Shown: in pieces, positions 14,667-37,786 of the stretch
Numbering within the stretch: the first letter of the stretch is position 1
How the letters are laid out: the number at the start of each line of letters is the position of its first letter
DNA from: Prasinococcaceae sp. CCMP 1430
Lineage: Eukaryota; Prasinodermophyta; Palmophyllophyceae; Prasinococcales; Prasinococcaceae
DNA length: 64,000 nucleotides
Reading direction: 5' to 3'
Assembly (NCBI GenBank): GCA_013416795.1
Contig: RQSC01001262.1
Span: 1 to 64,000, forward strand
Made by a program: the position numbers and the translations under genes
The notes under the pieces: generated by a model
What the model saw: only the letters and a program-made list of their open reading frames with translations
Told to the model about the DNA's origin: nothing
The model's database searches: none

Positions 14667-14730
14667 AAGATTCTTCAGTTTTCTTTTTTCACACTTTCAA
14701 AACCATTCTTTGTCTATAAAAAAATCTTTT

Positions 14731-15543
14731 ATGTCTTTGTCTCTTCTTCATGCGAAAGAGAGTTTTTCACGATTGGGATGGGCAGGGTGCACCTTTGGAA
14801 CAAGTCTTTGGTGTGGAACCTTCTATGTGCATGACTTTGTTGACAGTCTTTTGCTCTTTCCTTCTTTGAGCGGGACTTCTTTTGGGTTTACTGCCCACGC
14901 ACCAACTGACCTTTTTGAAGTTCTTTTCCGAGTCCTTTTTTTCTCAACTTTGTGCACCTGCCTTCCAACTCTGATCTGCTTTTTTCTTGAAGCCGCTCAC
15001 CCTGGGTTGGATCAAAGTGAAACTTGGACTCTTCATTCCTTTCTTTTTTTCTTTGTTTTTGGGTTTCTTTTTCTTCTTTGGGTGGGAAAAATCCTTCTTT
15101 TGAGTACAATCTCTGGATTGGTTTTTTTGTATGGAGTGGACCAGAACCATCAAGACATACATACAGGTCTCCTTCCCCTTCTTCGAGGACTTGGGTGGAT
15201 CCGTTTTCTCACGCACACCCTTTCTTTGGGCTTTTTCATCTTTCTTCTTTGTGTGTGTCTTCCCTTTCTTTTGAAAAAAACAGGATACACAGTGATTGAT
15301 GGAAAGAGTCTTCGAAAACTTTGGGCACTTGGAACCCTTGGATGTTTGAGTTTGGCTCTCCCAACCCCAGACGTTTTTCTCGGTCTTTTGGGAATCTGGA
15401 TAGGCTTTCTCTTTCTCTTTGAAATCAGTCTGGGTTTTCTTTTGTACACACAGATCCGTCAGACTGTCCGAAAGACTTTCTCTTTCCAAGAAAGTAGTTT
15501 ATTTATATATTTTTTATATAAGTGGGTTTCTTCTTTCGGATGA
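14731..15543 (+). CDS. tatC: Twin-arginine translocase subunit TatC (ymf16/mttB)
   Basis: An inner-membrane protein with about six hydrophobic segments. Two TatC hallmarks are visible: APTDLFEVLFRVLFF (the YT.PTE-F-like loop before helix 2) and LPTPDVF (TPPD.F-like, before helix 5). The role is Sec-independent protein translocation, in mitochondria probably for the Rieske protein or a related substrate. The length is 270 residues from ATG 14731; the open frame starts at TTG 14710. The last ten codons fall in an AT-rich motif and contain two TTA codons, a codon I did not meet in the other genes I read. The stop overlaps the converging trnS by 7 bases. Confidence 0.82.
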   Translation: MSLSLLHAKESFSRLGWAGCTFGTSLWCGTFYVHDFVDSLLLFPSLSGTSFGFTAHAPTDLFEVLFRVLFFSTLCTCLPTLICFFLEAAHPGLDQSETWTLHSFLFFFVFGFLFLLWVGKILLLSTISGLVFLYGVDQNHQDIHTGLLPLLRGLGWIRFLTHTLSLGFFIFLLCVCLPFLLKKTGYTVIDGKSLRKLWALGTLGCLSLALPTPDVFLGLLGIWIGFLFLFEISLGFLLYTQIRQTVRKTFSFQESSLFIYFLYKWVSSFG

Positions 15544-15619
15544 AGAGGGATTCGAACCCCCGATACTTCCGTATGTCAGTTTTCAAAACTGATGCCTTCG
15601 ACCACTCGGCCATTCATCC
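15537..15619 (-). tRNA. trnS: tRNA-Ser (UGA)
   Basis: Class II tRNA. The anticodon stem TCAGT/ACTGA encloses TTTGAAA, giving UGA. The acceptor is GGATGAA/TTCATCC with discriminator G. Its 3' end overlaps the tatC stop on the opposite strand. Confidence 0.9.
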
Positions 15620-15628
15620 AAATCAAGG

Positions 15629-15700
15629 TGGGTTCAGTAGGACTCGAACCTACGGCCTGTCGGTTAAAAGCCGATTGCTCTCCCACTGAGCTATGAACCC
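15629..15700 (-). tRNA. trnK: tRNA-Lys (UUU)
   Basis: The anticodon loop CTTTTAA gives UUU. The acceptor GGGTTCA pairs with TGAACCC and the discriminator is A. It lies 9 bases from trnS on the same strand. Confidence 0.88.
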
Positions 15701-15775
15701 TCAATAAGAGTACAATCTTTCTTTGAAGAAAGGATGGTTTTGCTTGTATGTGTACAAAAAAGAAGGAAGAAAAAC

Positions 15776-15857
15776 TACGAATAGAGGGACTCGAACCCCC
15801 AAGGCGCAAGCCACTGGTTCCTAAAACCAGCGTGTCTACCGATTTCACCATATTCGC
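15776..15857 (-). tRNA. trnL: tRNA-Leu (UAG)
   Basis: Class II tRNA. The anticodon stem CTGGT/ACCAG encloses TTTAGGA, giving UAG for CUN codons. The acceptor is GCGAATA/TATTCGT. Confidence 0.88.
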
Positions 15858-15909
15858 ATCCGGAAACTCCGGTGTCTTTGTACAAAGACAGATCCATCTT
15901 CTGAAGAAA

Positions 15910-16140
<231 letters not shown>

Positions 16141-16327
16141 TCAAAAAAAAGGTCAAGAAAGTCTCCTTCCTTAGGAAACGCCGTACAGAAAGGGTAGAGG
16201 GTTTCTTTTCACACGAATACAAAAAAAAAGAAGAAAGACTTCTTTTCAAAAAATCATTTTTTCTCTATTAGGCGGTTACAAAAGAAAAAACCTTCTTTTC
16301 AAATCTTTCTGTTTTTTACCTTGGTTT

Positions 16328-17227
16328 TCACATTCCAAGTCGAAGAGGTCGAACCTTGGTTTTTCGCCGCTTTCGTCGTTGAGCGGGAAGACGACATCCA
16401 TTATGGGGTGTTTTCTTGACAAAAAGGGTTCCAACCTTTTTAAAAGTCGGATGACTTCCTTCCTTTCGGGAAGCCTTCCAATGACGTTGAACAACCTTCA
16501 TAATCCCTGCTTGGGCTGCAGACCCAGATCGACCCGAACCAGAGAGAACCAAAAGGAAGGATTTCATTCCACCTTGAAAGGCTTCCTTGGCCATTTTCAT
16601 TCCAAGAGCAAAGGCTGGGTGTGTCAGTCGTTGTTTTTGGATGAACCCAAGACTTCCAGTTGATGCATGGGAAAAGGATCGCCCCCAAATGTCGGTAATT
16701 CCAAGAAAACAGTTATTATAGACGGTTGTCACATGGAGACACCCATACGCAGGAAACCGGGTTTTTTGGTCCGGATAAAAGCGAGCGTGAAACCGGGCTT
16801 GTTCTTTATGCAAAAGATAGGTTTTTTTTCCTTCCTGTCCTTCCAAAGTAGGAAGGTTTTCTGAAAACTGAGGGTTTTGAACTCGAGCTTGTGCACTCAG
16901 AAGGATTGGAAAAACATCCTTCTTTCCCTCTGCCAAACTTTGGTTTTTCTCCGAAACAGAACCAAGAAGATTCACAGACTCTGTGTACAAGGTTTGAAGA
17001 TTGGTTTGGTAGGAAGTATATGGTTTCTGGAAAGAAACCCCATACCAAGAATTCAAACGAGAGGAAGAAAGACTTCCTGAGGGTGACCATCGACGACGAA
17101 GCAAAAATCGGCGAGCCTTTTTCGCTCGGAGCCGGAGACTTTGAAAAGCAAAGAATCGAAGGTTTGCATGGTTCGAACCCTGGGCTTGGAATTTTTTTTG
17201 AAAGGATAGGTCTGAAGAAAAAGACAT
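16328..17227 (-). CDS. rps11: Mitochondrial ribosomal protein S11, N-terminally extended
   Basis: The C-terminal ~135 residues are S11: GCLHVTTVYNNCFLGITDI, ASTGSLGF, a central FALGMKMAKEAF helix, GSGRSGSAAQAG and the closing PHNGCRLPAQRRKRRK. The N-terminal ~160 residues are basic, Ser/Gln-rich and not recognised. Total 299 residues against about 130 in bacteria. It lies last in the ribosomal cluster, after rps13, as in bacterial alpha operons. ATG 17227 is used; because rps13 ends at 17263, the extension cannot start further upstream. Confidence 0.88.
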   Translation of the reverse strand: MSFSSDLSFQKKFQAQGSNHANLRFFAFQSLRLRAKKARRFLLRRRWSPSGSLSSSRLNSWYGVSFQKPYTSYQTNLQTLYTESVNLLGSVSEKNQSLAEGKKDVFPILLSAQARVQNPQFSENLPTLEGQEGKKTYLLHKEQARFHARFYPDQKTRFPAYGCLHVTTVYNNCFLGITDIWGRSFSHASTGSLGFIQKQRLTHPAFALGMKMAKEAFQGGMKSFLLVLSGSGRSGSAAQAGIMKVVQRHWKASRKEGSHPTFKKVGTLFVKKTPHNGCRLPAQRRKRRKTKVRPLRLGM

Positions 17228-17262
17228 GAAAGAAAAAAATCAAAAACAAAGAGAAAAAACCT

Positions 17263-17643
17263 TTATTTACTCACTTTTTTTCGAAAAAGATTTGTTTTCC
17301 GAAAGGTTCGAGCATTTGATCGTGTTCGTTGACCACGACAGGGAAGCCCACTTCGGTGTCGAAATCCTCGATATGAGGAGGTTTCCACAAGAGTTTGAAG
17401 GTTTTTAAAATGGGCCCGCTTCAAAGCATAGGCCCCCGGATAGAGTGCTTCTCCAAGGGCTGTCAATTGCATGGAATGTTCTTTGGAAAGTGCAGACAAA
17501 GGGAGGGTTGGAAGAACACCGAGAACTGCACAATATTTTTGTACACTTTGATGGCCGATCCCATAAAGAGATCGAAGGGCATGGTCAAGAGAGGTTGAAG
17601 AGGGAAAAGACTGGCCCAAAAGATTTGTTGTAGGTGTTGGCAT
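17263..17643 (-). CDS. rps13: Mitochondrial ribosomal protein S13
   Basis: A small-subunit head protein of 126 residues. The helix-two-turn-helix part shows ALRSLYGIGHQSVQKYC, and the C-terminal tail has the S13 signature YRGFRHRSGLPCRGQRTRSNART. ATG 17643 gives the family start and length; the frame upstream to 17940 overlaps rpl6 and is not used. It sits between rpl6 and rps11. Confidence 0.93.
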   Translation of the reverse strand: MPTPTTNLLGQSFPSSTSLDHALRSLYGIGHQSVQKYCAVLGVLPTLPLSALSKEHSMQLTALGEALYPGAYALKRAHFKNLQTLVETSSYRGFRHRSGLPCRGQRTRSNARTFRKTNLFRKKVSK

Positions 17644-17725
17644 ACAGCGAAAAAAGAAAGACTCACCTTTCCATAAAAGGAAAGAATTTTTTTGAAAGTT
17701 TTTTAAAGTGTAGAAAGAAAGAGAA

Positions 17726-18214
17726 TTATTTCTTTTTCCCTTCACGAAGGGTATACAAAACGCCTTCAACACGAACACCCTTTGCTTTATAAGGATCGGG
17801 TCGACGAAGGTCCCGAAGGTGAGCGCCCACAGATCCAACAATACCTGGGTGAAGACCATACAAAACAAGGGTTGTTGGACTTTCAATATGAAGCATCCAA
17901 TCTTCTCCATGGGGAAGAAGAGTATCGTGAGAGTATCCAACCTTTACCCGAGTCGAACAAGGGGTTTGATCAGCTTTAAACCCAGTTCCAACAAGGTCAA
18001 AGGCTTTTCGACTTCCAACCTGAAGATGGTGAATGCTTGTTTCAAGAACACGAAGGCTTCGTGGATTGGTACACAAAAGGTTTCGCCCAGAAAGTGTAAT
18101 CTCTCCTTCACAATCGACAAGAAGGGACCCGAGAGGTCCAGTGAGAAGACCATGGTGAGATCCAAACATATGAAGGCTTACATCAGGCGGAAGACTAAAC
18201 ACAAAGGGAGGCAT
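17726..18214 (-). CDS. rpl6: Mitochondrial ribosomal protein L6
   Basis: The protein of 162 residues has the two L6 half-domains. The C-terminal signature LRRPDPYKAKGVRVEG matches the L6 consensus (RKPDPYKGKG). Earlier stretches GPLGSLLVDCEG and VGTGFKA also fit. ATG 18214 is chosen rather than the in-frame TTG at 18250. In the cluster it lies between rps8 and rps13. Confidence 0.9.
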   Translation of the reverse strand: MPPFVFSLPPDVSLHMFGSHHGLLTGPLGSLLVDCEGEITLSGRNLLCTNPRSLRVLETSIHHLQVGSRKAFDLVGTGFKADQTPCSTRVKVGYSHDTLLPHGEDWMLHIESPTTLVLYGLHPGIVGSVGAHLRDLRRPDPYKAKGVRVEGVLYTLREGKKK

Positions 18215-18368
18215 ACGAAAGACGAAGGGTTCTCTTTGTCGGTCAGACAAAGGAGGAAAAAGAGGTCTACAAAGAATGTGTAAAAGAAAGAAAGGTTTTT
18301 TCTCTCATGCAAAAAAACAAAAATATATGAAGGTCAGAATCAAAGACCTTTCAAAGAAGAAAAGAATC

Positions 18369-18764
18369 TTATGATCCATTCACTTCAAGAAGGTGCTCCC
18401 CTCCTAGGTTCAAGATCCAAGCTTCTGTATGTGAAAGAATCCCCTGGTCAGTCGAAAGAACCTTCAGATTCCAATAGGGTGTTCCCTGATCGAGTTGGCG
18501 TGCTCGAAGGTACACTCGTTTTTGGGATTTAGAGATCCGACGAATAGTACGCAGAGCAGGTTTCCCATCCACATATCGAAGGGTTGCCACACAAAGGTTT
18601 TTTTCAAGGATCCACCCATGAAGAAGACCATGAGAGGAAAGAAGACTGAGGATTGCAGAATTTTGAGCAGTGTGCGGAAGAGAGACCTTTGTTTGTTTCA
18701 AGGTTGCTCCTGTGCTCAGTGCGGTGACAAGAGCATCCAAAGGTTGGTGTCCAAAGTACTTCAT
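18369..18764 (-). CDS. rps8: Mitochondrial ribosomal protein S8
   Basis: The protein of 131 residues has an N-terminal domain (DALVTALSTGATLKQTKVSLP), a middle KPALRTIRRISKSQKRVYL and the C-terminal S8 signature VLSTDQGILSHTEAWILNLGGEHLLEV. ATG 18764 matches the family start; the frame upstream contains a long Phe-rich stretch that is leader, not protein. Order rps14-rps8-rpl6 is that of the bacterial spc operon. Confidence 0.92.
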   Translation of the reverse strand: MKYFGHQPLDALVTALSTGATLKQTKVSLPHTAQNSAILSLLSSHGLLHGWILEKNLCVATLRYVDGKPALRTIRRISKSQKRVYLRARQLDQGTPYWNLKVLSTDQGILSHTEAWILNLGGEHLLEVNGS

Positions 18765-18863
18765 AAAGAGAAAAGAGAGTCTGCTTCTTTGAGGGTTCAG
18801 ACGAAAAAAAAAGAAAAATATGAAAAAGAAGAAAGAAAGATCAACCCAAGAAAAAGGTCTCAC

Positions 18864-19205
18864 TCAGTTTCGCTTCAAGAACCCTGGAATCTGGCCACGA
18901 TTGGCAAGGCGACGAAGGCTGTGTCGACTCAACCGAGTTTTTGAAAAAACTCCACGTCCTCGACCCGTGAGTGTACATCGGTTTCGCACACGGGTTGCTG
19001 AAGTGTTGCGATCCAGAGAAGCAAGGTAAAGGCCAACCCCGTATCGATAGTCCGCTGGAAGACGAAGGTTCTTCATCAAAGACCGGAGAAGTCGACGGAA
19101 GAACCCCTGTGTACGAACCTTTTCTCGACGAAGACGGTCAGTGGTGACCTTTCCTTTTCCCGGAAGTCGAGCAATTTCATAGAGATGAAAGCCTTTGAGT
19201 GCCAT
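18864..19205 (-). CDS. rps14: Mitochondrial ribosomal protein S14
   Basis: The protein of 113 residues ends in the S14 signature [38 protein letters not shown]. There is no CxxC zinc pair, as expected for the long, zinc-free form. Its first 130 bases overlap the 3' part of the rpl5 open frame in another register. Confidence 0.93.
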
Positions 19206-19843
19206 AGTAGAAAAAATAAAGCCGGAGATTCTTTGAAGATTTTTGAAGGCTTTCTTTGAATGTACCTTTGAACAGCCTTCTCAGGAAGGAGAGGAAATTG
19301 ACGTTCCGTCAAATATCGATACCCCTCTTCCTTTGTTGTTGTTGGTGTGTGAATACACACTTGAAGGTAAAACCCTTCTTCCAAAAGAGGTTTCAAAGGC
19401 TCGAGTTCTGGACAAGAGTCCAAAGAATTCAAAGTAAAAGAAAGGTCGCCCTGAAGGTTCAATCCCGAAAGAGGAATTCCCTGAAAGGTTGGGTCCAAAG
19501 GGAAAAAAGTGTGGATGCATCGGGAAAGAAAGCTTTCAGCATACTCCCCCTTCAAAGAAAGTGTAAATCCAAGAAGGTCGTTTTTTCGAAGATGGAAAGA
19601 AGCATGATGATTTTCTGCTTGCGCACTTTCAGGGTAGATTCCTGTAAGAAAACTCATGAGTTTCAAAAAACGAATCCCTTTTTTTGGATCAGATGCCAAG
19701 GTTTTTTCTGTACAATGAAGAGAAACCTGGAGAGGGCCGGTCACCTTTCCAGTATTCAAAAGACTGTCGTACACGCACACAGTTTTTCCATGTGCATGAA
19801 GGCGAGACATCAAGGGGTAGGGTGTGTAGGCGTAGGGTGTCAT
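19076..19843 (-). CDS. rpl5: Mitochondrial ribosomal protein L5
   Basis: Fits L5 in the body: [14 protein letters not shown], then [35 protein letters not shown] (the L5 LRKGevlG..VTLRG..M..FL block), the [23 protein letters not shown] block (GN.s.gi.E...FPEI) and the [27 protein letters not shown] end. Residues after that (about 70) are extra and overlap rps14 by 130 bases, so the true stop is as read unless a frameshift was missed. ATG 19843 is preferred to GTG 19879. Large-subunit central protuberance, 5S-binding site in bacteria. Position between rpl14 and rps14 supports the call. Confidence 0.82.
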
Positions 19844-19875
19844 AAAAAGCACAAAAAAAGAGAAGGTCAAATCTT

Positions 19876-20250
19876 TCACAAAATTCGGGGTGAAAGACTG
19901 AGAATTTTCGTATGTTCACGCCGAAGTTCAACTCCTGCTTGTGTATGAACTCGGGTGCCCAAAGGCCCGCCTTGAGCATTCAACAACACACAGGCGTTAT
20001 ACCCCTGGGTCACAGAACTTCCATCTGAACGTTGGGATGGTTTCAAAGTATTGACAATAACTGCCTTGTACATTGAACCAAGACGAACTTTAGGGTTCTG
20101 AATCTTTGGACTCAAAGACCGAACACTCACAAGAATGGTGGCACCCACGCTTCCATATCCCTTTGGTTGGACTCCATAGACTTTGAGACACCGAACCTTT
20201 CGGGCTCCAGAGTTATCAACAACGTGTAGTCGACTGCCTGTAATGATCAT
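19876..20250 (-). CDS. rpl14: Mitochondrial ribosomal protein L14
   Basis: The protein of 124 residues starts MIITGSRLHVVDNSGARKVRC, the L14 beginning, and has the basic strand YKAVIVNTLKPSQRSDGS and the closing RVHTQAGVELR. It is a large-subunit protein near the GTPase-side bridge. ATG 20250 gives the standard start. Confidence 0.95.
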   Translation of the reverse strand: MIITGSRLHVVDNSGARKVRCLKVYGVQPKGYGSVGATILVSVRSLSPKIQNPKVRLGSMYKAVIVNTLKPSQRSDGSSVTQGYNACVLLNAQGGPLGTRVHTQAGVELRREHTKILSLSPRIL

Positions 20251-20291
20251 AAAGAGAAAAAAGAAAGGAAAAAAAGAAGGAAAAACCCAGG

Positions 20292-20732
20292 TCAGTTTTC
20301 CGTTCCCCACTCGGCTTTTTTCTGAGAACGATCAATAAACCGAAGAGGGACTTTAAACTTTTCTGACAAAAGAGCACAGGCCTCCTGAGCTGCGGTCTTG
20401 GAAACCCGGCTCATTTCGAAAAGAACTTCTCCTTTTCGAACACGAGCAATCCAATGATGAGGGTTCCCTTTTCCCTTTCCCATTCGTACTTCTTGGGGCT
20501 TTCGTGTGACAAGGACGTCTGGAAAGACTCGAATATAGAGTTTTCCTTGACGCTTCAAAGTTCGGGTAATCACACGACGGGCAGCTTCAAGGGAACGAGC
20601 TGGAAGTTTACAAGGGTGGAGTGCTTGAATCCCATAAATCCCAAACATCAAATCTCCTGTGGTTGCAGTTTTCTGAAAGCTTCCCTTCATTTTCTGATAT
20701 TTTCGAAAGGGTGTTCGTTTTGGTTGAAGCAT
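20292..20732 (-). CDS. rpl16: Mitochondrial ribosomal protein L16
   Basis: The protein of 146 residues starts MLQPKRTPFRKYQKMKG, the universal L16/L10e start. GIQALHPCKLPARSLEAARRVITR and RVRKGEVLFEM follow in the family order, with the KPQEVRMGKGKGNPHHW loop. It is a peptidyl-transferase-side large-subunit protein, after rps3 as in bacteria. Confidence 0.97.
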   Translation of the reverse strand: MLQPKRTPFRKYQKMKGSFQKTATTGDLMFGIYGIQALHPCKLPARSLEAARRVITRTLKRQGKLYIRVFPDVLVTRKPQEVRMGKGKGNPHHWIARVRKGEVLFEMSRVSKTAAQEACALLSEKFKVPLRFIDRSQKKAEWGTEN

Positions 20733-20850
20733 ACAAAAGAAAGAAAGGAAAAAGGAGGCAAAAGAAACCACACATACTTTCCCTCCATACGGGGAAAGGG
20801 TGAGAAAGGAAAAACCTTACGTACTAGAATGTTTCAAAAAAACCTTTCTT

Positions 20851-22503
20851 TCAAGAAAAAAATCTACAAAAGATTCTTTGGTGAGAAACAAAGTGGGAGG
20901 AAGGAAAGGAAGTCCAAAGAGAAGAGTCTACCTTTGATTCAAGGCTTTTTAAAAAGGGGTTTTTCTCTGTTGTATCCTTGGTTGGAGCAGTATGAATCCA
21001 TACTTTTACCCCAATTGTTCCTCGTTTGGTATAGGCAAGAGACTGGCTATATCCAATCTGGGCAGACAAAGTACTCAAGGGTGTTGATCCAAACTTTTTG
21101 ACAATGGTTTGTTTTTTCCCTCCACCCTGTTTTCCGAGGGGACCAGACACTCGAAGGCGGAGGCCAAGAATACGGTTTGAAAGAAGACTATCAGACCCGA
21201 TCTGCCCTTTGAAACCTTCCTGAGAAAGGGAAGGTTGGGTTTTTGTGTACAAGGTCCCCAACCGACCTGTAATTGCACGAGGTGAAATTCGATGTTCAAA
21301 GGCAAGAGCGATTCCTTTCGAAAGAAGGTCAGGGTGGGCCAAAAGGTCTTTTGCTTTATGAAATCGAAGGTCCACACGTTGGCCACTATAGGCTTCCAAC
21401 CCTTGAAGGAAGACCCGAAGAGAGGGACCCCCAGAAAGACGACCAAAAGGTCGTCCAAGAACCCCACTTCCCTTTGTTTTTCGGACGGGGTTTTGAGAAC
21501 TCTCCTTCTGAGGCGGGAAAAAAAAGGAAGTATGTTGAAGAAGGGTGGTTTTTTCAGAAAGGGAAGGGTTCAACCCTTTCCAAGTCGATCCAGAGAGAGT
21601 TTCAAGACCAGTGTTTTCCAAAGGTTTCAGACCATGGAAAACCAAAGGTTTTTGAAGACTGGTTCGCATATGTTTCTGAATCCACTGGGATCGATTTTTC
21701 AAAGATTGAAGGTAGGGTGTGTGAAGATTCTTTCCCAAGGTCAAAAGGCCCTGAAGATGAAAGCTTTCTGTTGAAAGAGAAAGGTTCGCCGTTTTTTGGA
21801 CCTTTCCATACCCAAAGAGGTGGGTCGCACTCAAGGTTGAGGAAGGTGTGACAATCCGACGCAACTTACTTTCCTTTCGGTCAGCAAGGGCCGGATGAAG
21901 GGCTGTTTGGGTTGCTCGATATCCAAGACTCATTCGACCTTGTTCAGCGTCTGCAAGACAACTCAAGGCACTCAAAACACGAACCCGGGAAACCAAAGAG
22001 CTTGAAGACTGAAGACTCTGAAGAGAACGATGGTCTTGGACACTTCCCTGTCCAAAAAGAAGAAGGGTTGCAAGTTCTCGATGATTTCGTCCAACGTGGG
22101 CCAAAAGAGAACCTTCCTGACTTCGACGGAAAAGTGTGTGGGCCCAAAAGGTTTTGATTCGCTGGGCAGAAAAAGAGAATCCTTGGGAGTGGATTTGGTT
22201 GGAAGCCTTATTTTGCCGAGGCAACCGCCCTCGCTCTCGATTCTTTCGTCGATTCTTTGGTCGAGTGTCTTCAAAAAGAGTGTTTTTTGTATACAAAGTA
22301 TCAATTCGCACACCGTTTGACCCGCGTCGAATAATCGAAGGTCCCGGAATACATTGAAGAGCCTTCAGATAGGCTTCAATCTGAAAACGAAGGCCTCGAT
22401 CTTGAGCAAGAAGGGACCCAAAACCTTCTTTTCCTGTCCAAAGGGACTCGTGTTTTTGATGCAACCCAAGACGAAGAGAAAGTGGGTGGGTTTTTGATGC
22501 CAT
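20851..22503 (-). CDS. rps3: Mitochondrial ribosomal protein S3 with large insertion
   Basis: The N-terminus (THPLSLRLGLHQKHESLW) and the C-terminal S3 domain (RILGLRLRVSGPLGKQGGGK, then TPLSTLSAQIGYSQSLAYTKRGTIGVKVWI) are clear. Between them are several hundred residues, rich in Ser, Leu and Gln, with no bacterial counterpart, followed by a family-like block at about residues 360-415. Total 550 residues compared with about 230 in bacteria. Enlarged S3 is also common in plant mitochondria. The mRNA-entry-side small-subunit role is inferred from the family. Confidence 0.92.
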   Translation of the reverse strand: MASKTHPLSLRLGLHQKHESLWTGKEGFGSLLAQDRGLRFQIEAYLKALQCIPGPSIIRRGSNGVRIDTLYTKNTLFEDTRPKNRRKNRERGRLPRQNKASNQIHSQGFSFSAQRIKTFWAHTLFRRSQEGSLLAHVGRNHRELATLLLFGQGSVQDHRSLQSLQSSSSLVSRVRVLSALSCLADAEQGRMSLGYRATQTALHPALADRKESKLRRIVTPSSTLSATHLFGYGKVQKTANLSLSTESFHLQGLLTLGKNLHTPYLQSLKNRSQWIQKHMRTSLQKPLVFHGLKPLENTGLETLSGSTWKGLNPSLSEKTTLLQHTSFFFPPQKESSQNPVRKTKGSGVLGRPFGRLSGGPSLRVFLQGLEAYSGQRVDLRFHKAKDLLAHPDLLSKGIALAFEHRISPRAITGRLGTLYTKTQPSLSQEGFKGQIGSDSLLSNRILGLRLRVSGPLGKQGGGKKQTIVKKFGSTPLSTLSAQIGYSQSLAYTKRGTIGVKVWIHTAPTKDTTEKNPFLKSLESKVDSSLWTSFPSSHFVSHQRIFCRFFS

Positions 22504-25090: not shown

Positions 25091-25204
25091 TCAAAAAGAT
25101 TGCAAACGCAAAAAAAAAGCTGGAAAACTCTCAAAGAAAGAGAAAAAAAATCTTACAGAAAAAAGAAGGAAAAACCGAGCAAAAAAAGAAAGGAAAAAGA
25201 ATCT

Positions 25205-25555
25205 TCACCAATCAAGGGCACCTTTGGTCCACTCGTAGACGAATCCCACGGTCAGCACACCGAGAAAGACCATCATCACATAAAACCCAAAGATTCCTGT
25301 GTGACTGAGAGAAAGAGCCCAAGGGAAAAGGAAGGAAACCTCCAAATCAAAGATAATGAAAAGAATGGCGACCAAGTAAAACTTAATATCAAACCGGCCT
25401 CGAGCATCATCAAAGGGCTCGAACCCACACTCATAGGCAGCTTCGGTATCAATGTCTGCTCGTCGAGGTTGACCCACAAGAAGGGAGGCAGCAAGAATAG
25501 CAAGGGCAAGAACAGCGGCAATCAAGAGAAGAACAAAAACAGAACCAAAATCCAT
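25205..25555 (-). CDS. nad3: NADH dehydrogenase subunit 3, repeat copy
   Basis: Identical in protein to the left copy at 10395-10745, including [10 protein letters not shown]. The ATG at 25555 lies 10 bases inside the intact repeat; upstream of that, the pyrimidine-rich leader of the left copy is replaced by its polarity-reversed version, so the leader on the coding strand reads as purine-rich. If this copy is real, its expression signals would differ. Confidence 0.95.
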
Positions 25556-25565
25556 AAAAAAGATG

Positions 25566-26465
25566 TTTTTTTTCCTCTCTCCTTTTTTGTTTTCCCTTCT
25601 GAGAAAGTGGAAGAAGGGAAGAGCGTTTGCGAGTTCCTACCTATGGGAAGAGCGTCTGGGAGTTCATATGGGTAGGAAAGGGTCTCCCAGTTTTTAGACA
25701 GAAAAAAGAAAAAAGGGCTCTTTCTTCCAAAAAACATCCACGATTGCCTGAGCTTGGCGACTGTCATAGGAACATTCCCTGTGTGAGATGGTTGACTCGA
25801 TTCGTGGGAAAAGCGTCTGCGAGTTCATACAGGTAGGAAGCGCGTCTGGGAGTTCAGACACAGAAAAAGCCAAGAATCTTTGGTTTCTTTTCCAGTCAGT
25901 GGGACAGAAATTTTCTTTTCTGAAAAAACTAGGTGGAAACTTGGGTTCTTTTCTAAAGTTCTTCCCCCTCGGGAATGGCTCCTAGCTTGAGCCCCGGAGT
26001 GGGAATGGTACCCACGCGAGATGGTGACTCGGTATTCCCGGAAAAAGCGTCTGCGAGTGGACACATGTGGGACTCTTTCTTCCAGAACCAACTTTTTTCA
26101 GAGAGTCTTTGTTTGGGAAGCCAAGGCTCTTTGGTTTCACCTCTATTGGCCTAAGCTTGGCTACCGAAGAACGCACGTTTCGTTTGTGAGATGGTTGACT
26201 CAATATGGGGGCGGAAGAGACAGTTTCTCTTTCCCACGGCCTTTTCTACCCTAAGCTTGGGTACTATGGCTTCTGAGCCATATGACTAAATCGTTTGGTC
26301 GCGATAGCAGGTGAGTCGGTGAAAAGGTGGGGAAAGCGAATAAGAGTTCATACAAGTAGGAAAGGGTATGTCAGTTCATATAGATAGGAAAGCGCATAAA
26401 AGTTCATACACAGAAAAAAAACCTTTTTTGGTATGTTCTTAAGAAAAACTCTTCCAACAAAAGTC
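25566..26465. other. 900-base mirror-image block (reversed, not complemented)
   Basis: Every base at position p equals (not pairs with) the base at 35950-p in 9485-10384, in all stretches I compared: both ends, several interior stretches and the tRNA regions. Just outside, at 25565 and 26466, the relation switches to normal complementarity with the same axis, so no bases were gained or lost. The four tRNA genes expected here (trnV, trnT, trnA, trnS) appear only as backward strings, and short open frames here are meaningless. Complementing this block in place, without reversing it, would restore a perfect inverted repeat. Confidence 0.97.
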
Positions 26466-26480
26466 GAAGGGTTCTCTCTT

Positions 26481-27110
26481 TCAAAAGGTTTTCCAAGGAG
26501 AAGCATAATCAAAGACTCGATATTCCTGAGCGAGTTCGACAGGAGTGCTCACAACTTGTTGAAGGTCTTCGTCGTATCGAACCTCAGTAAACCCAGAGAG
26601 AGGGTAATCCTTTCGCAAGGGATGGCCCTCAAACCCATAGTCTGTGAGAAGGCGATACAGGTTTGGGTGATCCAAGGTATGGATTCCAAACATATCCCAG
26701 TTCTCACACTCGGACCATTGGGCACTCGGATACAAATCAACCACACTCGGAAGAGACTCATGGTCATTCACAAGACAGATCACTTGAAGGCGGTGTTCCA
26801 AGGTATAGGAAAGGAGTTGGTAGACCACACCAAACCGGAGGGCTGCAGTTGGTCGATCAACCACGTTTATCGCAGTCAACGTTGTGTACTGAAGACTTTC
26901 CTCATCTCGAAGGTACCGAAGAACAACCTTCAACTGACTTGGTCGAAGGTGAATCTGAAGGTGGGTATCCTGAAGAAGGATTCCGTCCACTGAGGTTGGA
27001 AGAGCATAGGCAAGGGTAAGACCAGGTCCACCCGCAAGTTCTTGGGCTGCCTTAGGAGAAAGTTTTGAAAGAAGTCGGTCGAATCCAGCGATTGGAAGAG
27101 TAGATGGCAT
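26481..27110 (-). CDS. nad9: NADH dehydrogenase subunit 9, repeat copy
   Basis: Same protein as the left copy at 8840-9469, with WDMFGI and LTDYGFEGHPLRKDYPLSG. The stop lies 15 bases inside the intact part of the repeat before the mirror block begins at 26465. Confidence 0.97.
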   Translation of the reverse strand: MPSTLPIAGFDRLLSKLSPKAAQELAGGPGLTLAYALPTSVDGILLQDTHLQIHLRPSQLKVVLRYLRDEESLQYTTLTAINVVDRPTAALRFGVVYQLLSYTLEHRLQVICLVNDHESLPSVVDLYPSAQWSECENWDMFGIHTLDHPNLYRLLTDYGFEGHPLRKDYPLSGFTEVRYDEDLQQVVSTPVELAQEYRVFDYASPWKTF

Positions 27111-27313
27111 AAACAAAAAAACAAAGGAAAAACAAAGATGAAGGATTTTCTTTGTTGGTCAGACGAAGGGTTTCCTTGTCAGAAAGAAAAAACAAAAACC
27201 TTTTCCAAGAAAAAAGGGCTTCCGAAAAGGCGGTCAAGTATGTTTTTTTTTTAGAAGACCCTTTCTCTCGACCACCAGGATTTTCTGAAAGAGGGTTTGG
27301 GTGATCGAAAGAA

Positions 27314-27384
27314 AGGCCGTGGGCGGAGTCGAACCGCCGTTAAGAGCTTTGCAGGCTCCTGTCTTACCCCTGGACCACACGACC
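27314..27384 (-). tRNA. trnC: tRNA-Cys (GCA), repeat copy
   Basis: Reverse-complement copy of 8566-8636 in repeat A, with the same GCA anticodon. Confidence 0.9.
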
Positions 27385-27397
27385 ACCTTGAAGGAAG

Positions 27398-27470
27398 GGC
27401 GGATAGCGGGAATCGAACCCGCGCTTTCTATACCACAAACAGACGCTCTAACCACTGAGCTATACCCACC
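27398..27470 (-). tRNA. trnH: tRNA-His (GUG), repeat copy
   Basis: Reverse-complement copy of 8480-8552 in repeat A, including the -1 G. Confidence 0.9.
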
Positions 27471-27616
27471 ACAGGAGACTTCCTCTATAAACCCGGTTAA
27501 CCCTATCTATGAAGGTTGCCCAGCGACCGCCCTTTGGGAAAGGATACACATACTTGAGTATACAGGAAACCCTTTCTTTGATTTTTTTCCATTTGAAGCA
27601 GAAGAAAATCAAAGAC

Positions 27617-27688
27617 TGGAGTATAGCCAAGTGGTAAGGCATCGGTTTTTGGTACCGACATGCGAAGGTTCGATCCCTTCTACTCCAG
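27617..27688 (+). tRNA. trnQ: tRNA-Gln (UUG)
   Basis: The anticodon stem TCGGT/ACCGA encloses TTTTGGT, giving UUG. The acceptor is TGGAGTA/TACTCCA with discriminator G; the T1-A72 pair is typical for tRNA-Gln. Confidence 0.9.
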
Positions 27689-27731
27689 TTTCTTTCCAGA
27701 AAGGATACTTCAGATATCTTCTCTTCGATCT

Positions 27732-28118
27732 ATGCCCTCTCTTCGTCAACTTTTGAAGACTGCTCCTCGAATGAAAGCCGAGAAAAAGTCTACCGTTCCA
27801 GCCTTTGAAGGGTCTCCCTTTCGGAAAGGAATCTGTCTGAAGGTGTACGTGATCAAACCAAAGAAACCAAACTCGGCCCAACGAAAGATCACCAAGGTAA
27901 AACTTTCCACAGGAAAGACTGTGTTGGCCTATATTCCAGGGATCTTTCATACCCTTCAGGAACACTCCCACGTTCTTCTTCGAGGGGGTCGAGTCAAGGA
28001 CCTTCCAGGAGTGAAATACCATTGCGTCCGAGCAAAGGAAGACTTTCTTCCTGTCTTTGAACGGCGGAAAGGACGGTCGAAGTATGGGTGTCCCCACCCA
28101 AAGAATTATCGGAAATGA
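27732..28118 (+). CDS. rps12: Mitochondrial ribosomal protein S12
   Basis: The decoding-centre protein, 128 residues. The central S12 block is clear: [19 protein letters not shown], then AYIPG and [23 protein letters not shown]. The usual PxxNPALR-type N-terminal region is shortened and modified ([21 protein letters not shown]). The C-terminus [13 protein letters not shown] matches the family ending. ATG 27732 is chosen; an open frame runs back into trnQ. Confidence 0.95.
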
Positions 28119-28240
28119 GGGTCCTTCTTTATCTGAAAGATGGAGGGCTTTCTTTGTCTGTCATAGGCAAAGGGTTTTCTTTCTTTGTCATAAAGGAAGG
28201 GTTTCTCGCAAGGTTCAGTCTTTCTCTTGCACACACACGC

Positions 28241-28655
28241 GATGTCGTCTCCCTGTGTCCTCGTGCTGCAGAAGGTGCGAAGGGTTCGGCTGTTCGCCGA
28301 TTAATACAGGACGCGGATGGGTTTAGAACGTCGTAAGACAGTTTGGTTTCTACCTACCGTGAGGGTACACCCTGGACTCAGACTGAGTCCAGACGTATAT
28401 GTGAGAAGCTTTCACTCTAGTACGAGAGGACCGAGTGGAACGGACCTCTGGGGTGTCTGTTGTAGTCCCACTGCAAGGCAGAGAATCTACGTCCGGAAAG
28501 GAGAAGGGCTGAGTGCGTCTGAAGCCCGAAACCAGCTTTGACACGACATATCAGCGCTGGCGGAAGACCACCGCAGAATAGGCAAACCGTGTGTCTCGGG
28601 TACACCGAAAAGCGAGTTTGTACTAAGAAGGCTCTCTACGAGTTTTTAACCCTAA
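28241..28655 (+). rRNA. rnl: LSU rRNA fragment c (end of domain V and domain VI)
   Basis: Begins GATGTCGTCTC, the strand that carries PTC nucleotides around E. coli A2503, and continues through GGCTGTTCGCC, GGGTTTAGAACGTCGT, the sarcin-ricin loop AGTACGAGAGGACC and the terminal GTACTAAG region. It is on the plus strand, opposite to the other LSU pieces, between rps12 and cob. The ends are estimated from conserved sequence. Confidence 0.88.
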
Positions 28656-28791
28656 GCAAAAATGTATCTTTTCTTTTTCTTTCTTCCTTTCTCACTCTCT
28701 TTTCCCAGGAAAAAAAAAGTCTCTCTATCTTTCAAAAAAAGAAGAAAAAAAGAGATCTCTTGGGATGATCTTTCCATTCTTTTCATGATTT

Positions 28792-30120
28792 ATGTCAACC
28801 TTTGTGAAACTTTCAGGAACACGGAACAAAACAACCCTTCTTCCTGCGTCTACCGCACCCCTTTCAATGGCCCCTTTGTGGGATGCACCCATCCAAGACA
28901 CAGAAGCCTTTGGAAAAGGAGCCTTCGGACCGATGACTGAAAACCACCGACCGACTCCTTTCATGCGTCGATCAGCCTTGATCACTCAACCAGTCTTGAG
29001 TGTGGTGAATGATCACGTGAGTGATTACCCGACCCCTTCGAATTTGACCTATATGTGGGGATTCGGATCTCTTGCAGGAATCTGCCTTGGGATCCAAATT
29101 GCAAGTGGAATCTTCCTTGCAATGCATTATACTCCCCACGTGGACCTTGCCTTTTCGAGCGTTGAGCATATTATGCGAGATGTTGAAGGAGGGTGGTTCC
29201 TCCGGTATCTTCACGCAAATGGAGCCGGAATGTTTTTCATCGTCGTCTATATTCATATTCTTCGAGGACTCTATTATGGGTCTTACACAAGTCCACGAGA
29301 ACTCGTGTGGGTTCTTGGGGTTGTCCTCCTTCTTTTGATGATTTTGACAGCCTTTATTGGGTATGTCTTGCCTTGGGGGCAGATGTCTCTGTGGGGAGCA
29401 ACGGTGATTACCAGCCTTGCATCCGTTATTCCAATTGTAGGAAATGACGTTGTTGTCTGGCTGTGGGGAGGGTTTTCCGTGGATAACGCAACCTTGAACC
29501 GATTCTTTAGCCTTCACTACCTTCTTCCCTTTGTGATTGCTGGACTTTCTATCCTTCACATTGCAGCCCTTCACCAGTATGGGTCAAACAACCCTGTGGG
29601 AGTTCCCTCACACACAGACAAGCATCCTTTGTACCCTCTTTTCTATGTGAAAGACCTTGTGGCCTGGTTGGTCTTTGCAATTATTTTCTCTTGCTTTGTC
29701 CATTATGCACCCAACTATTTGGGGCATGCGGATAACTACATTCCAGCAAACCCTTTGAGTACCCCTGCACACATTGTTCCAGAGTTCTACGTCCTTCCTT
29801 TTTACGCTGTTCTTCGGTCTATTCCAGACAAACTTCTTGGGGTTGTGGCAATGATTGCAACCTTTGTCTGCCTCGGACTCATGCCTTGGCTTCATACAGC
29901 ATCTGTTCGATCAAACGCCTTCCGACCATTGGCAGCAATGGCGTACTGGTCCTTTGTGGCCACCGCCCTTCTTCTTGGATGGATTGGTGCGATGCCTGTC
30001 GAGTCCCCCTACCTTGAAATCGGTCAAATTTTGACCTTTTACTTCTTTTTCTACTTCCTTGTGCTGACCCCGGTCCTTGGACGCCTTGAAAACCTCCTTC
30101 TTCGATGGAAGGTTCAATGA
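28792..30120 (+). CDS. cob: Cytochrome b (complex III)
   Basis: The quinol-oxidising subunit with two b haems. [64 protein letters not shown] and the C-terminal helices are all present. The Qo-site ef-loop motif, normally PEWY, reads PEFY here ([15 protein letters not shown], near 29778-29820). From ATG 28792 the protein has 442 residues, about 57 more than usual; [10 protein letters not shown] at ATG 28963 gives the standard 385-residue length and may be the true start. The extra N-terminal part is not recognised. Confidence 0.96.
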
Positions 30121-30418
30121 AAAAGAAAGGTAGTAGATATATTTTTTATTTATCCTTCAAAGGAAAAGACAGGGAAAAAAGTCTTTTTTTTGAAAGGATG
30201 TTTTTTCTGTGTGCGTTCGTCTTTGGGTCGACGACCGTTTTTCTTTTTCAAGAAAAGAAAGACTCTCTCTTCTCTCTTTGTGTGTGGGTCACCCCACTTC
30301 AAAGAAAGGAAGGCGTTGAGTCGTTGAGGAAAGACCACTCTTTCCTGCGGATTGTTCGTTCTGAAGGTTCCCGCATTCTGCCTTCATCAAAGAAGGTTTC
30401 TTCTTTGCCCCGATGTGT

Positions 30419-30641
30419 GAGGTGCCAAACACTTCCGTCGATTCGAGCTCTCGGGAAGTATAAGCCTGTTATCCCCGGGGTACCTTTGATCCGTTGAGCG
30501 AAGCCCCTTCCACAAGGAAACTCCGGTTCAGTATGATCGACTTTCGTCTCTGCTCGATGTGCCCATCTTACAGTCAAGCAGGCATAGGGCATTCTCCCCA
30601 CTCGCCCGGTTGCCGTCCGGGGTGAGCCTACCTTGCATACA

Positions 30642-30681
<40 letters not shown>

Positions 30682-31020
30682 CTCCACCATGCACTGTCCA
30701 CAGGGTGAGAGCGCCGGTGTGTGTGGGTAGTCTCTCACTGATGCGTGTCCTCTAGGCCGCAACCTATGGATACCGCTCCTACCTAGTCTGCGCACACAGG
30801 TCCCGACACTCAATGCAGGGCTTGAGTAAAGGTCCACGGGGTCTTCTCGCCTTACCGTGAGTACCCCGCATCTTCACGGGGACTTCAATTTCACCGAGTC
30901 CATGGTTGAGACAGCTGGCCGGTGGTGACGTGATTCATGCGGGTCGCTACTTATGCGACAAGGAATTTCGCTCGTTGAATGGACGCGCTTTTCCATCTGA
31001 AATCTCGACAGTTTTTCCAC
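30419..31020 (-). rRNA. rnl: LSU rRNA fragment b (end of domain IV and most of domain V)
   Basis: Read on the minus strand it starts at GCGAAATTCCTTGTCGCATAAG (E. coli about 1934) and runs through GGTACCCCGGGGATAACAGGCTTATAC (about 2445) to GTTTGGCACCTC (about 2500), where recognisable LSU sequence ends. Flanks on both sides (to about 30330 and 31085) could belong to the transcript. It lies downstream of the SSU gene, not next to fragment a. Confidence 0.88.
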
Positions 31021-31129
31021 CGAAAGACTGTCCTCCTTCATTTTCTAAAGGGGCCAATTCCATAAAGGCGGTCTCAAAAAAAAACCGCCCTTGAAAACGG
31101 ATTTTTCTTGAGAAATCCTTGAGCACACA

Positions 31130-31245
31130 CCCTTTCGCTGAAGCTCAGGTATATTCATCCTTTCCCGTACGGTCAACCATGTCTATCCTTTCCCATAGGG
31201 TCAAGTCTATGTCTTTTTTTCCATATGCTCAAGTATGGACCTCCT
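31130..31245. repeat. Dispersed short mitochondrial spacer repeat
   Basis: Three to four imperfect units of about 28-30 bases, in the form CATCCTTTCCCGTACGGTCAA on the plus strand. Related units, in either orientation, occur at 9535-9615, 10085-10140, 10255-10335, 27535-27565 and 37795-37850. The interval from here to the SSU (31245-31690) shows no gene I recognise. Confidence 0.65.
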
Positions 31246-31689
31246 TTCTTAAATAAAAAATTTTATCTCTAAGGGGTCAGAAAAGTCTGACCAAAGACTT
31301 GAGTCTCTTTTTTCTGTGGTGTGTATGATTCAAAAAAAAAAACCTTTCCTTTATGACAAACACATGTTTTCTCGCTCGCAAACAAGGGAAACCAGACCGG
31401 AGAACCCAAAGAAGGAAAGAAGCATCCGCCCCCTCCAAGAAAGCGGTCACTCAAAAGAAGAAAAAACCTCCTGAACCCTCTTCTTCTTTGGTTTTAATAA
31501 GAGTACTATAAAAAACCTGCTGTCTTTCGTTAGCATGTATGATGGAAGACTGAAGGTTTAAGGTTTTCAGTCTTTTTTTTCTTTCAAAGACTCTTGTGTT
31601 TTTTTTACGAATCCTTGAAGATTCAAACAAAACCATTTTGCTTTCTCATTCCGAGTGGAGGGTGGTTTTTTCCCTCTCTTTCTGGTCAT

Positions 31690-33125
31690 CTTCCAAGGGC
31701 AGGTTCCCCTACCCTTACCTTGTTACGACTTCACTTCAGTTACTTTTGACAGGGTGGGACAGAGTTCTTTTCTTCCTCGAAAAGAGAAAAAGAAGGATGT
31801 CTGTACTTCACCTGAGAAAAATTTCCAAAGTGTGACGGGCGGTGTGTACAAGGTCCAGGTACGTGTTCACCGCGGCATTCTGATCCGCGATTACTCGCAA
31901 TTCCTCCTTCACGAGGGCGAGTTGCAGCCCCCGATCCGAACTAAGGAAGCCTTTGAGGGTTCTCTCAAGGTTTCCCTTTCGATCACCTATTGAAGCTTCC
32001 ATTGTAGCACAGGTGCAGCCCAACCCATAACGACCATAAGGACTTGACGTCATCCGCGCCTTCCTCCCCCTTCTCGAGGGCAGTCTTTTCAGTCAGAAAG
32101 AATCTGAAAAGGCGGGTTTCGCTCGTTTCTGAAATGAATCATAGGACACAAATCACGAACTGACGACAGCCATGCAGTACGCCTCATCACCAGAACTGGT
32201 GTGATGGAAGGGTTGGTAAGGTTTTGCGCGTATCATCGCATTAAGCCCCATGCTCCACTGCTTGTGTGGACCCCCGTCAATTCCTTTGAGTTTCAGCGCT
32301 GCCGCCGTACTCCCCAGGCGGTGCTCTCCGGCGTACACCTTGATCCCTAAGAATTTTTCAACCCTTAGATGGAGCACAACGTTTTCAGCTGTGGACTACG
32401 AGGGTCTCTAATCCTCTTCGCTCCCCACGCTTTCGTGCGTCAGCGTCGGTGCTGGGCCAGAAAACAGCCTTCGCCCATTGGCCTTCGACTCGAGATCACT
32501 GCATTGCACCGCTTCCTCGAGCCTTCCGTTTTCCTCTCCCAGACCCATGAGTGTGCCTTTCACCGAGCCTTTCCTCGATTCTTCCAGGGCTTTAACCCGA
32601 TGAGTGCACCTCCGCCTAGACACCCTTCACGCCCAGTCATTCCGATGAACACTCGCCCCCTTCGTATTACCGCGGCTGCTGGCACGAAGTTTGCCGGGGC
32701 TTCTCTTTTTTTCCTTCATCATAGGAGAAAGTCTTGAAGTTTACAACAGTGCGCTGTCAACCTCCTTCACGCGGTGTCGCTGCATCAGGGTTTCCCCCAG
32801 TGTGCAAGATTCTTCACTGCTGCCCTGATTTCAGGTCTGAGCCCTTTTCAGTTCCAGTGTGGCTGATCATACTCTCATACCAGCGACGGATCATCGGCTA
32901 GGATGGGCACAAACCACCTACGACCTAATCCGAAACAGGACCCTCCAAAGGCGGATGCTTCCTTTCCAAACATTCGGGGGACTCTCTCCCTTGGTTTTTC
33001 CTTTGGGTAGTCTTCCTGTCTATTACTCACCCGGACGCCCTGAGCATTGCCCAGTCGACTTGCATGTGTTAGACGCACCGCCAGCGTTCCATCTGGGCCA
33101 GGATCAAACCCGTCCTTTCACGAAT
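31690..33125 (-). rRNA. rns: Small subunit (16S-like) rRNA
   Basis: On the minus strand it begins GGGTTTGATCCTGGCCCAGA and holds ACACATGCAAGTCG, the 530 loop GTGCCAGCAGCCGCGGTAATACG, the 790/900 region and the decoding-site CGTAACAAGGTA near the 3' end. The 3' end reads GGTAGGGGAACCTGCCCTTGG, and no CCTCC anti-Shine-Dalgarno is seen after it. It lies between LSU fragments a and b on the same strand. Confidence 0.93.
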
Positions 33126-33289
33126 AGTTCTTTTTTCTGGTTTTTTCTCTTTTCTCCTGTGGTCGGAGAAGAAAGAAAGATTCAGAGTGGACCACATAGA
33201 GTCTCTGAGGATCCTACTAGACCTTAAAGGGTCGTTGGTGTCCTGCGGGTGAAGATTCTTTCCCGCATAGAGTGGTCTGTTCGAAGGCA

Positions 33290-35150
33290 GCTTTGGTGTA
33301 CCTTAGTACTGTCAGTGATACAGCAGCCATTGGCCCGGTTTTCGATTTCCGGCAAACACCGGTCCTGTACAACGACGGGCATTGGGCACACGTCAGTCCC
33401 TATACGTCGTCTTTCGACTTTGCAGAGACCTGTGGTTTTAATAACCAGTCCCCGGCCACATTTTTCTGCGACTCCAGTCAGACTGGAGCCCTCCTTCTTG
33501 CGAACGTACGGAGTGAATTTGCCGAGTTCCTTAACCATGGGTCTCTCGACGCCTGAGTCTGTTCGACCCGCGCACCAGTGTCGGTTTAGGTACGGATACA
33601 GGGTTTTTGAACTTTTCCTGGACCTTCTTTTCTCAGACCTTTCTTCCCAAAGAAAAAACCTCAAAGAAAGAAAGCCGTCCTTCAAAAACATCCTCCATCA
33701 AAGTGAGACTTCTCTCATCTTCTTAGGATCCGTGTCTTCCACAGATGGTCAACAGTGCTGTGGAACCCGTGCGCATACGGCGACGGGGATTGGCTCCCCG
33801 AGCCTCGTTACTCATGTCAGCATGCTCACTCCCGAGTCCTCCAGAAAAAGTATCCTTTTTCCTTCAAAGGAACACAGGACGCTCCGCTACCAGAACGAAT
33901 CGTTCTCCGTCGTTTCGGTGGTGCCCTTCAGTCCCGAGTATGGTCGGCGCCAAAAAACTCATTCAGTGCGCTGGTACGCGATCATCATAGAACGGCTGCT
34001 TCCAAGCCCATCTCCTGAATGTCTCTGTTTTCTGACTTCCTTGCGCACTCAGGGCACACTTTGGGACCTTAACGGACGGTCTGGGCTCTTCCCCTCTCGA
34101 CCCTGGACCTTCGCGCCCAGAGTCTGTACAGATACCCACCCTTTGTCGGCCTTCGGAGTTTTCTTGGACTTCGTAAAGGTTTGGGCTCCCGTCATCCAAC
34201 AAGTGCTCTACCTCCGAAAAGGAGTCTGGGTCTAGTCTACCTACATAGATTTCGCGGAGAACCAGCTATCACCAGGCTTGGTAAGCCTTTCACTCCTTTC
34301 CACCCCTCATCCGAGAATTTTGCCACATTCACCGGTTCGGTCCTCCATCGAAAGACTTTCGACTTCAACCTGGAGATGGAAAGCTCGCCTGGCTTCGGGT
34401 CGTACACCCCCTATACACAGAAAAGAAAGAAAAAACCCTTATCGCATACGCTCAAGAGAAAATCCTTTCTTTGAAAACCAAGAAAGAAGCCTTTGTAAAC
34501 TCGGGTTTCCTCCTGCCTCCACCTTTGGGCTCAAGCCTTGGTTTTTTTTTGTACAGGTGAATCTACACTCGCTGACCCATTATGCAAAAGGTACGCCGTC
34601 ACCATGTCTGGCTCCGACCGTTTGATGTGCACCAGGATTCAGGTTCTTTTCAAGTCCTCATTCTTCGGAAGAAGTCTTCCGGATCGGTTCTTTTCACCCT
34701 TCCCTCACGGTACATCCTGCGCTATCGGTTCTTCTAGGTATCCAACCTTCAGAGGGTGGTCCCCCTGTCTTCCATCGGTGTGATCCGATGTACTCATTCT
34801 TTTCTCTGTCGACCCAGTCTTTCCTGTACAGGGCTTTCACCTTCTTTGGCCCGGGATTCCACCACGGTTCAAGAAAAGAAGAAGGTCGACCTTCTTTGGG
34901 GTTTTTCACCAAAAAAAGAGAGGTTTGGTCCGGGGTCGATCACATCTACTGCCGGAGTCTCGGTTGATCAGTCTTCCTCGGGGTACTGAGATGTTTCACT
35001 TCCCCCGGTGTTTGTTCTGTCTGAGCTTGTGCTCTTGGGAAATCAAAACTTTGTCGCGGTGTGCTAAAGTTTTGCCTTTCGTTTTGGTGTACGTCCCTTT
35101 CCTAGAAGACCAGGGCATCCCCCTGGTGCATCCTCTCTCTCTACGATTCC
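33290..35150 (-). rRNA. rnl: LSU rRNA fragment a (domains I-III and start of IV)
   Basis: On the minus strand the 5' end shows ATGCCCTGG, as in bacterial LSU (E. coli about 30). GTTCCTTAACC-type complement and TTATTAAAACCACAGG (about 1780) follow, and recognisable sequence ends at GTACTAAGGTA (about 1931). The expected continuation GCGAAATTCC is not here but in fragment b. The tail 33190-33290 can form a GCGGG/CCCGC stem. Confidence 0.88.
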
Positions 35151-36587: not shown

Positions 36588-36659
36588 GCTCCCTTCGTCT
36601 AGGGGTAAGGACATAACCTTTTCGAGGTTGAAACACGGGTTCGAATCCCGTAGGGAGCA
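36588..36659 (+). tRNA. trnE: tRNA-Glu (UUC)
   Basis: The anticodon stem TAACC/GGTTG encloses TTTTCGA, giving UUC. The acceptor is GCTCCCT/AGGGAGC. Repeat B begins inside it at 36645, so the right copy keeps only its last 15 bases. Confidence 0.88.
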
Positions 36660-36793
36660 GGAAAGAAAGGAAGTCTTTCTTTTTTCAGACTCTTTTTTCT
36701 GAAAAACTCAGTCTTTTTTCTTGTGTTTCCCTTTCTTTTTCTTTTGTACAGAAAGAAAGCTTCCACCAGTCTCCTTTTTCTTTCTTTGACTGA

Positions 36794-37786
36794 ATGACAC
36801 TTCTTACCTTTGTCTTCCAACTTACCCAGATTCTTGGTCTTCTTCTTCCTTTGTTGATTGCGGTTGCCTACCTTACCCTTGCAGAGCGAAAGATTATGGG
36901 GGCCATGCAACGACGAAAGGGGCCGGATGTGGTTGGTCTCTGGGGGCTTTTCCAGCCCCTTGCGGATGCTTTGAAGCTTCTTGTGAAAGAGGCTGCCCTT
37001 CCTACCCTTTCAGATATTCACCTTTTTGTTGCCGCCCCAGTCCTTACCTTTATTTTTGCAATGATGGGGTGGGCTGCTCTTCCTCTTTCAGAGGATGCTG
37101 TTCTTGTGGACCTTGATCTTGGAATTTTGTATATTTTTGCAACAGGGTCTTTGGGGGTGTATGGAATCATTATTGCAGGGTGGGCATCGAACTCAAAGTA
37201 TGCCTTTCTTGGAGCCCTCCGATCGACCGCACAGATGGTTTCCTATGAGGTTTCTATTGGACTTATTTTGATTTCCGTCCTTCTCTGTACAGGGTCTCTT
37301 CAAATTGCTTCTATTGTGAAAGCCCAGGAGGAAGTCTGGCTTGTCCTCCCTCTCTTCCCTATTGCTCTTCTTTTCTTCATTTCTTGTCTTGCGGAAACGA
37401 ATCGAGCACCCTTTGACCTTCCAGAAGCGGAGGCGGAGTTGGTTGCAGGGTACAACGTTGAATACGGGTCTATGGGGTTTGCCCTCTTCTTTCTTGGAGA
37501 GTATGCAAACATGATTCTCATGTCTGCCCTTCTTGTCCTTCTCTTCCTTGGTGGGTGGCACCCTCCTCTTATGGTCTTTCCTTTGACCATGATTCCTGGA
37601 GGGTTCTGGTATGCAGTCAAAACCCTCTTCCTTCTTCTTGGGTATATTTGGGTTCGAGCCAGTCTTCCTCGATACCGATATGACCAACTTATGGCCCTTG
37701 GGTGGAAGGTCTTCCTCCCTCTTTCCCTTGGATGGGTCTGTATGTTGAGTGGTCTTCTTCTTGGATTGAACGCTCTTCCAATGTAA
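36794..37786 (+). CDS. nad1: NADH dehydrogenase subunit 1 (complex I)
   Basis: A quinone-site membrane subunit, 330 residues with eight helices. [22 protein letters not shown], then [24 protein letters not shown], the acidic loop [24 protein letters not shown] and the final [13 protein letters not shown] are all family hallmarks. It is encoded in repeat B, so a second identical copy exists at 47496-46504. Confidence 0.98.

Follow-up and report, generated by a model that had tools for sequence, protein, structure and literature searches.

How could 900 bases in one copy of an inverted repeat come to mirror the other copy, when the sequence on either side is its ordinary reverse complement? The window (the whole stretch of 64,000 bases that was analysed) corresponds to positions 1-64000 of C41, a contig of 72,584 bases from a genome assembly of 24.5 Mb and 145 contigs. 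The initial annotation described bases 25566-26465 as 9485-10384 read backwards without complementation; base-by-base comparison gave 900/900 identical positions and no complementary ones. Along the axis x + x' = 35950, bases were complementary from 25175 to 25565 (391), mirrored from 25566 to 26465 (900) and complementary again from 26466 to 27521 (1056). The complementarity claimed for the surroundings was complete (391/391 and 1056/1056), and the switches were as abrupt as proposed, with no base gained or lost. The probability that all 900 bases would match position 35950-p by chance is ~0.25^900.

The 391-base inner arm of the right copy (25175-25565, minus strand) is fully complementary to 10385-10775, and the 1056-base outer arm (26466-27521, minus strand) to 8429-9484. 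The outer arm holds a nad9-like frame (26481-27116), trnC and trnH; Complex1_30kDa was found on the left-copy counterpart, at 8834-9466. Viewed locally, the block at 25566-26465, to which no strand is assigned, is the sequence expected in the right copy with its bases complemented in place and their order not reversed. When the block was complemented without being moved, 25175-27521 became the exact reverse complement of the left copy (8429-10775, plus strand), with all 2347 bases restored. A search with G000:C41:25400-26600 found the printed block in the assembly contig at 100% identity; the window is faithful to the analysed copy of the assembly, and the primary public record may differ. Across the genome, this search located the printed form nowhere but in C41 (3/3 candidates scored).

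G+C content was 62-73% in the first 8 kb of the window and 56% in the kb after that; it was 41-54% between 9 and 48 kb and 61-72% in the remainder, up to 64 kb. The middle carries cox1, cob, nad1, cox2, cox3, nad9, ribosomal protein genes, rRNAs and genes for three subunits (nad2/4/5 type) of a proton-pumping NADH dehydrogenase. The 26 tRNA predictions in the window all fall within this middle part. The flanks encode a class II (D, K and N) tRNA synthetase, a RING protein and a dynein heavy chain, and were therefore taken as nuclear. The middle of C41 is mitochondrial DNA, probably of a Prasinoderma-like green alga. Approximately 39 kb of it (8429-47867) lie between high-GC flanks of nuclear type and end on the right in a patchwork, where 44552-44775 is repeated at 47644-47867 with 99.55% identity. 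Either this segment entered the nuclear genome very recently, or the contig was assembled as a chimera. Other contigs carry mitochondrial fragments of 55, 55, 252, 132, 92, 2211, 540, 480 and 103 bases at 100% identity, which likewise reflect either recent nuclear transfer or chimeric assembly. Contig C136 has stretches 64-89% identical to the mitochondrial rRNA/tRNA region near 250-254 kb, 388-396 kb and 473-475 kb; these are perhaps plastid or bacterial rRNA operons inside the contig or joined to it.

Because the relation between the two copies is symmetric, the match alone does not tell which of them was changed. ARAGORN predicted four tRNA genes (Ser-GCT, Ala-TGC, Thr-GGT and Val-TAC) in the left block (9485-10384, plus strand), where Rfam RF00005 also matched, and none in the printed right block, in agreement with the gene content noted earlier. 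The four genes were regained when the right block was complemented in place. The trnS-trnA-trnT cluster, which available text of PMC3873408 describes as conserved in prasinophyte mitochondrial DNAs except that of Pycnococcus, is present in the left form only. A Markov test of reading direction, trained on mitochondrial sequence outside both copies of the repeat, scored the left block above the right at orders 2, 3 and 4, with margins of 16.7, 25.6 and 42.1 log units, and at each of these orders 103/103 held-out 900-base blocks favoured the forward reading. The order-1 test did not separate left from right (-0.3), although 101 of the 103 held-out blocks (0.98) were read forward. A sliding order-4 scan placed 4 of 256 mitochondrial windows backward; all four overlapped the block, for which the scan is biased by the presence of the left copy in the training set. 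None of 271 high-GC windows (C41 flanks and C98:196001-206200) was backward in the same scan.

Contig C98 provided a further copy of the region. It is identical to the window from 33722 down to 26466 (7,257 bases, part of the second repeat copy), passes from 26466 directly into a normal block of likewise 900 bases (C98:213477-214376, identical to 9485-10384) and continues without differences to window position 21656; C98:212421-225648 as a whole is identical to window 8429-21656, which includes the unaltered left copy. The outer flank of the right copy (26466-33722) thus adjoins, in C98, a normal block of equal length. Neither orientation of the printed form occurred in C98:196001-226532. C98 enters the left single-copy region and so bears on the outer border only, not on the cox1-side border; the junction 25565/25566 was found in C41 alone (3/3 candidates scored). 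C98 is high in GC and lacks mitochondrial matches in the 10 kb before 206 kb, then carries ~20 kb of mitochondrial DNA at 100% identity to its end, near which it jumps from window position 21656 to ~34550. The possibility that C98 represents a flip-flop isomer was set aside in favour of the simpler view that it holds the other copy of one large repeat.

These results bear out the proposal that the right copy is the altered one: tRNA content points this way, as do the k-mer direction (orders 2 to 4) and the unaltered block that C98 contains. The converse, that the left copy and C98 were altered and the right block is native, could draw on the symmetry of the relation and on the undecided order-1 statistics. 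However, it is the left form that has the four tRNA genes and whose k-mers read forward at orders 2 to 4; it occurs in two contigs (C41 and C98), and two 55-base pieces of it are found exactly in contigs C68 and C32. We regard an altered left copy as so improbable that it can be set aside.

One of these pieces, the exact copy of window 9485-9539 at C68:51239-51293, begins at the first base of the counterpart block. The coincidence of its start with the block border is probably just that, and we have no explanation for it. A natural breakpoint at this position was considered and rejected: the argument is post hoc, short exact stretches of mitochondrial DNA, differing in length, are present in several other contigs, and a breakpoint would not explain a change of polarity.

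The whole of C41 (72,584 bases) was searched for further stretches of this kind. An uncapped listing of reversed, non-complemented 24-mer pairs contained 3248 pairs, of which 1492 were removed as simple repeats and 1754 lay on the axis described above; the last 2 belonged to one 25-base self-mirror (68889-68913). With 20-mers, five further axes appeared, all of them short self-mirrors, two of which lie inside the block and its counterpart. Complementation without reversal was found for no 24-mers and for 80 20-mers in C41.

Mirror symmetry is known from H-DNA, whose mirror repeats are short purine or pyrimidine tracts with local symmetry. The block resembles them in being reversed and not complemented. 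It differs in that 52% of its bases are purines, the longest purine and pyrimidine runs over its 900 bases are 18 and 23, and its mirror partner lies ~15 kb away; it was rejected as an H-DNA mirror repeat on account of its purine content, short purine runs and distant partner.

A closer biological parallel is swinger DNA, a term of H. Seligmann for sequences with systematic base exchanges. Exchange of the type A<->T + C<->G has been reported, in available text of PMC4942731, in GenBank records from many laboratories, both mitochondrial and nuclear, and abrupt swinger switches have been described in chimeric RNAs (PMC7027195, available text), where it is further argued that random sequencing artefacts could not yield systematic exchanges. 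Applied here, this account would have a mitochondrial polymerase copy 900 bases under A<->T + C<->G exchange, that is, by replication on a parallel template, and the product become fixed in one repeat copy. The block shares with the published pattern the base exchange, the abrupt switch and its place in a mitochondrial sequence in a database record; all 900 bases follow one rule, and no other contig contradicts the cox1-side border. On the other hand, the block is known from an assembly sequence alone, is of exact round length with no exception among its 900 bases, and has a normal copy in the same assembly, which in C98 stands beside the same outer flank. The arms of the repeat copy are fully homogenised and the middle is not, and four tRNA genes are lost. 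The two papers share one author (PMC4942731, PMC7027195), who, according to available text of PMC4942731, is alone in describing such GenBank records in this way. A handling step differs from a random artefact in that it does yield a systematic exchange. We know of no polymerase that copies under A<->T + C<->G exchange or with parallel polarity, and we consider such replication extremely improbable as the source of the block. The same extremely low probability applies to a real block in the broader sense, in which a polymerase or a repair process copied 900 bases with parallel polarity and the mirror copy was fixed inside a functional repeat. Taken together, a biological origin is very improbable.

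Strand exchange, inversion, end joining and template switching all preserve antiparallel polarity, and none of them can therefore give a complemented, unreversed insert. Arms that match perfectly suggest that organelle repeats of this kind undergo copy correction, which would have erased the block; with arms 100% identical, as they would be under copy correction, an unmatched middle is without natural reason. The exact length of 900, the sharp borders free of insertions and deletions, the lost tRNA genes and the normal copy in C98 lead us to an in-silico change or a handling error. As would be found for an artefact, one string operation on a defined slice accounts for the block, and the normal form exists in another contig. 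The initial annotation had suggested a data-handling step or a deliberate in-silico edit, with which the same three lines of evidence (tRNA content, second- to fourth-order k-mer direction and the C98 copy of the block) are consistent. We conclude with great confidence that the block is an in-silico artefact and not a real biological feature. Points counted against this conclusion were the null result at order 1, the presence of the block in C41 itself, the silence of C98 on the junction 25565/25566, the C68 match at 9485 and the failure of narrow literature searches to find a tool that errs in exactly this way.

In the proposed sequence of events, an exact 900-base slice of the right copy would have been replaced, during text or sequence handling, by its complement without reversal; stated otherwise, the slice would have been swapped for the reverse of the left copy. 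Software or a manual edit may have been responsible, with or without intent, and the step may belong to the original assembly or to the later provision of the window. One version within this explanation is that, during the original public assembly, a faulty assembler, polisher or gap-filler inserted a minus-strand patch that it had complemented and failed to reverse. The analysed copy of the assembly does contain the block, and C41 is odd in other respects, with high-GC flanks on both sides of its ~39 kb of mitochondrial DNA and a patchwork right end. However, a patch would be expected to be ragged or to show consensus differences, and here the borders show zero offset and exactly 900 bases, a round number, are affected; moreover, C41 has no second block of the kind. 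We regard a bug in the public assembly as possible and rather doubtful. Narrow phrase searches found neither a published tool that produces exactly such an error nor sequences described as 'reversed but not complemented'. A scan of viral contigs for a piece of the normal block, which had little chance of any match, gave none.

The inverted repeat itself was also examined. The pair named inverted repeat A in the initial annotation, 8429-10775 and 25175-27521, was confirmed as two near-identical inverted copies. A second pair, 36645-37979 (plus strand) and 46311-47645, matches over 1335 bases at 100%, and 36645-37979 is probably the other end of the same large mitochondrial inverted repeat. Apart from the 900-base block, the arms of 391 and 1056 bases and the 1335-base end are all 100% complementary. 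Most simply, the two pairs would be the two ends of one mitochondrial repeat of ~12.8 kb, as estimated from the ends at 25175 and 37979, in a mitochondrial genome estimated at 48.3 kb.

Mitochondrial DNA of Prasinoderma coloniale (KF387569) offers the closest comparison. In available text of PMC3873408 it has a 14,364-base inverted repeat in a 54,546-base genome, larger than the sizes estimated here, and it resembles our sequence in that the large repeat carries both rRNAs, in the trnS-trnA-trnT cluster, in base composition and in a split rnl whose third piece, located between cob and rps12, is on the opposite strand. The nuclear genome of P. coloniale is 25.3 Mb with 69.8% G+C (PMC7455551, available text), near but not equal to the 24.5 Mb here. 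In our window, LSU rRNA matches lie at 33193-35145(-), 30386-30881(-), 28240-28344(+) and 28392-28633(+), so that rnl is in pieces on both strands, with the third piece between rps12 (27660-28118) and cob (28792-30120). A group I intron match at 30239-30472, within the split LSU region (28240-35145), resembles the trans-spliced introns of P. coloniale as given in the same available text (PMC3873408). A search with the cob protein gave one relative at 100% among the best 120 of 8000 candidates scored. P. coloniale did not occur among the named entries of this list or of a second protein search of equal size. The repeat in C41 differs from that of P. coloniale in being incomplete and placed between high-GC flanks. 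Since the sizes of mitochondrial repeat and genome differ from those of P. coloniale, we call the source Prasinoderma-like and name no species. The available part of the P. coloniale mitochondrial DNA description (PMC3873408) makes no mention of a mirrored block.

A block that is complemented without being reversed keeps its length and G+C content and would escape ordinary homology searches. This one was detectable because a second copy stood in the same window; of the 63101 possible placements of a 900-base block, 3768 (~6%) fit completely within one of the four copies of the repeat ends. If the block is also in the public record, that record needs correction, as four tRNA genes are hidden in it. 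Were the block real, it would run counter to antiparallel templating; almost certainly, no such block exists in nature. In the organism itself, the right copy most likely matches the left exactly as its reverse complement and contains four further tRNA genes.
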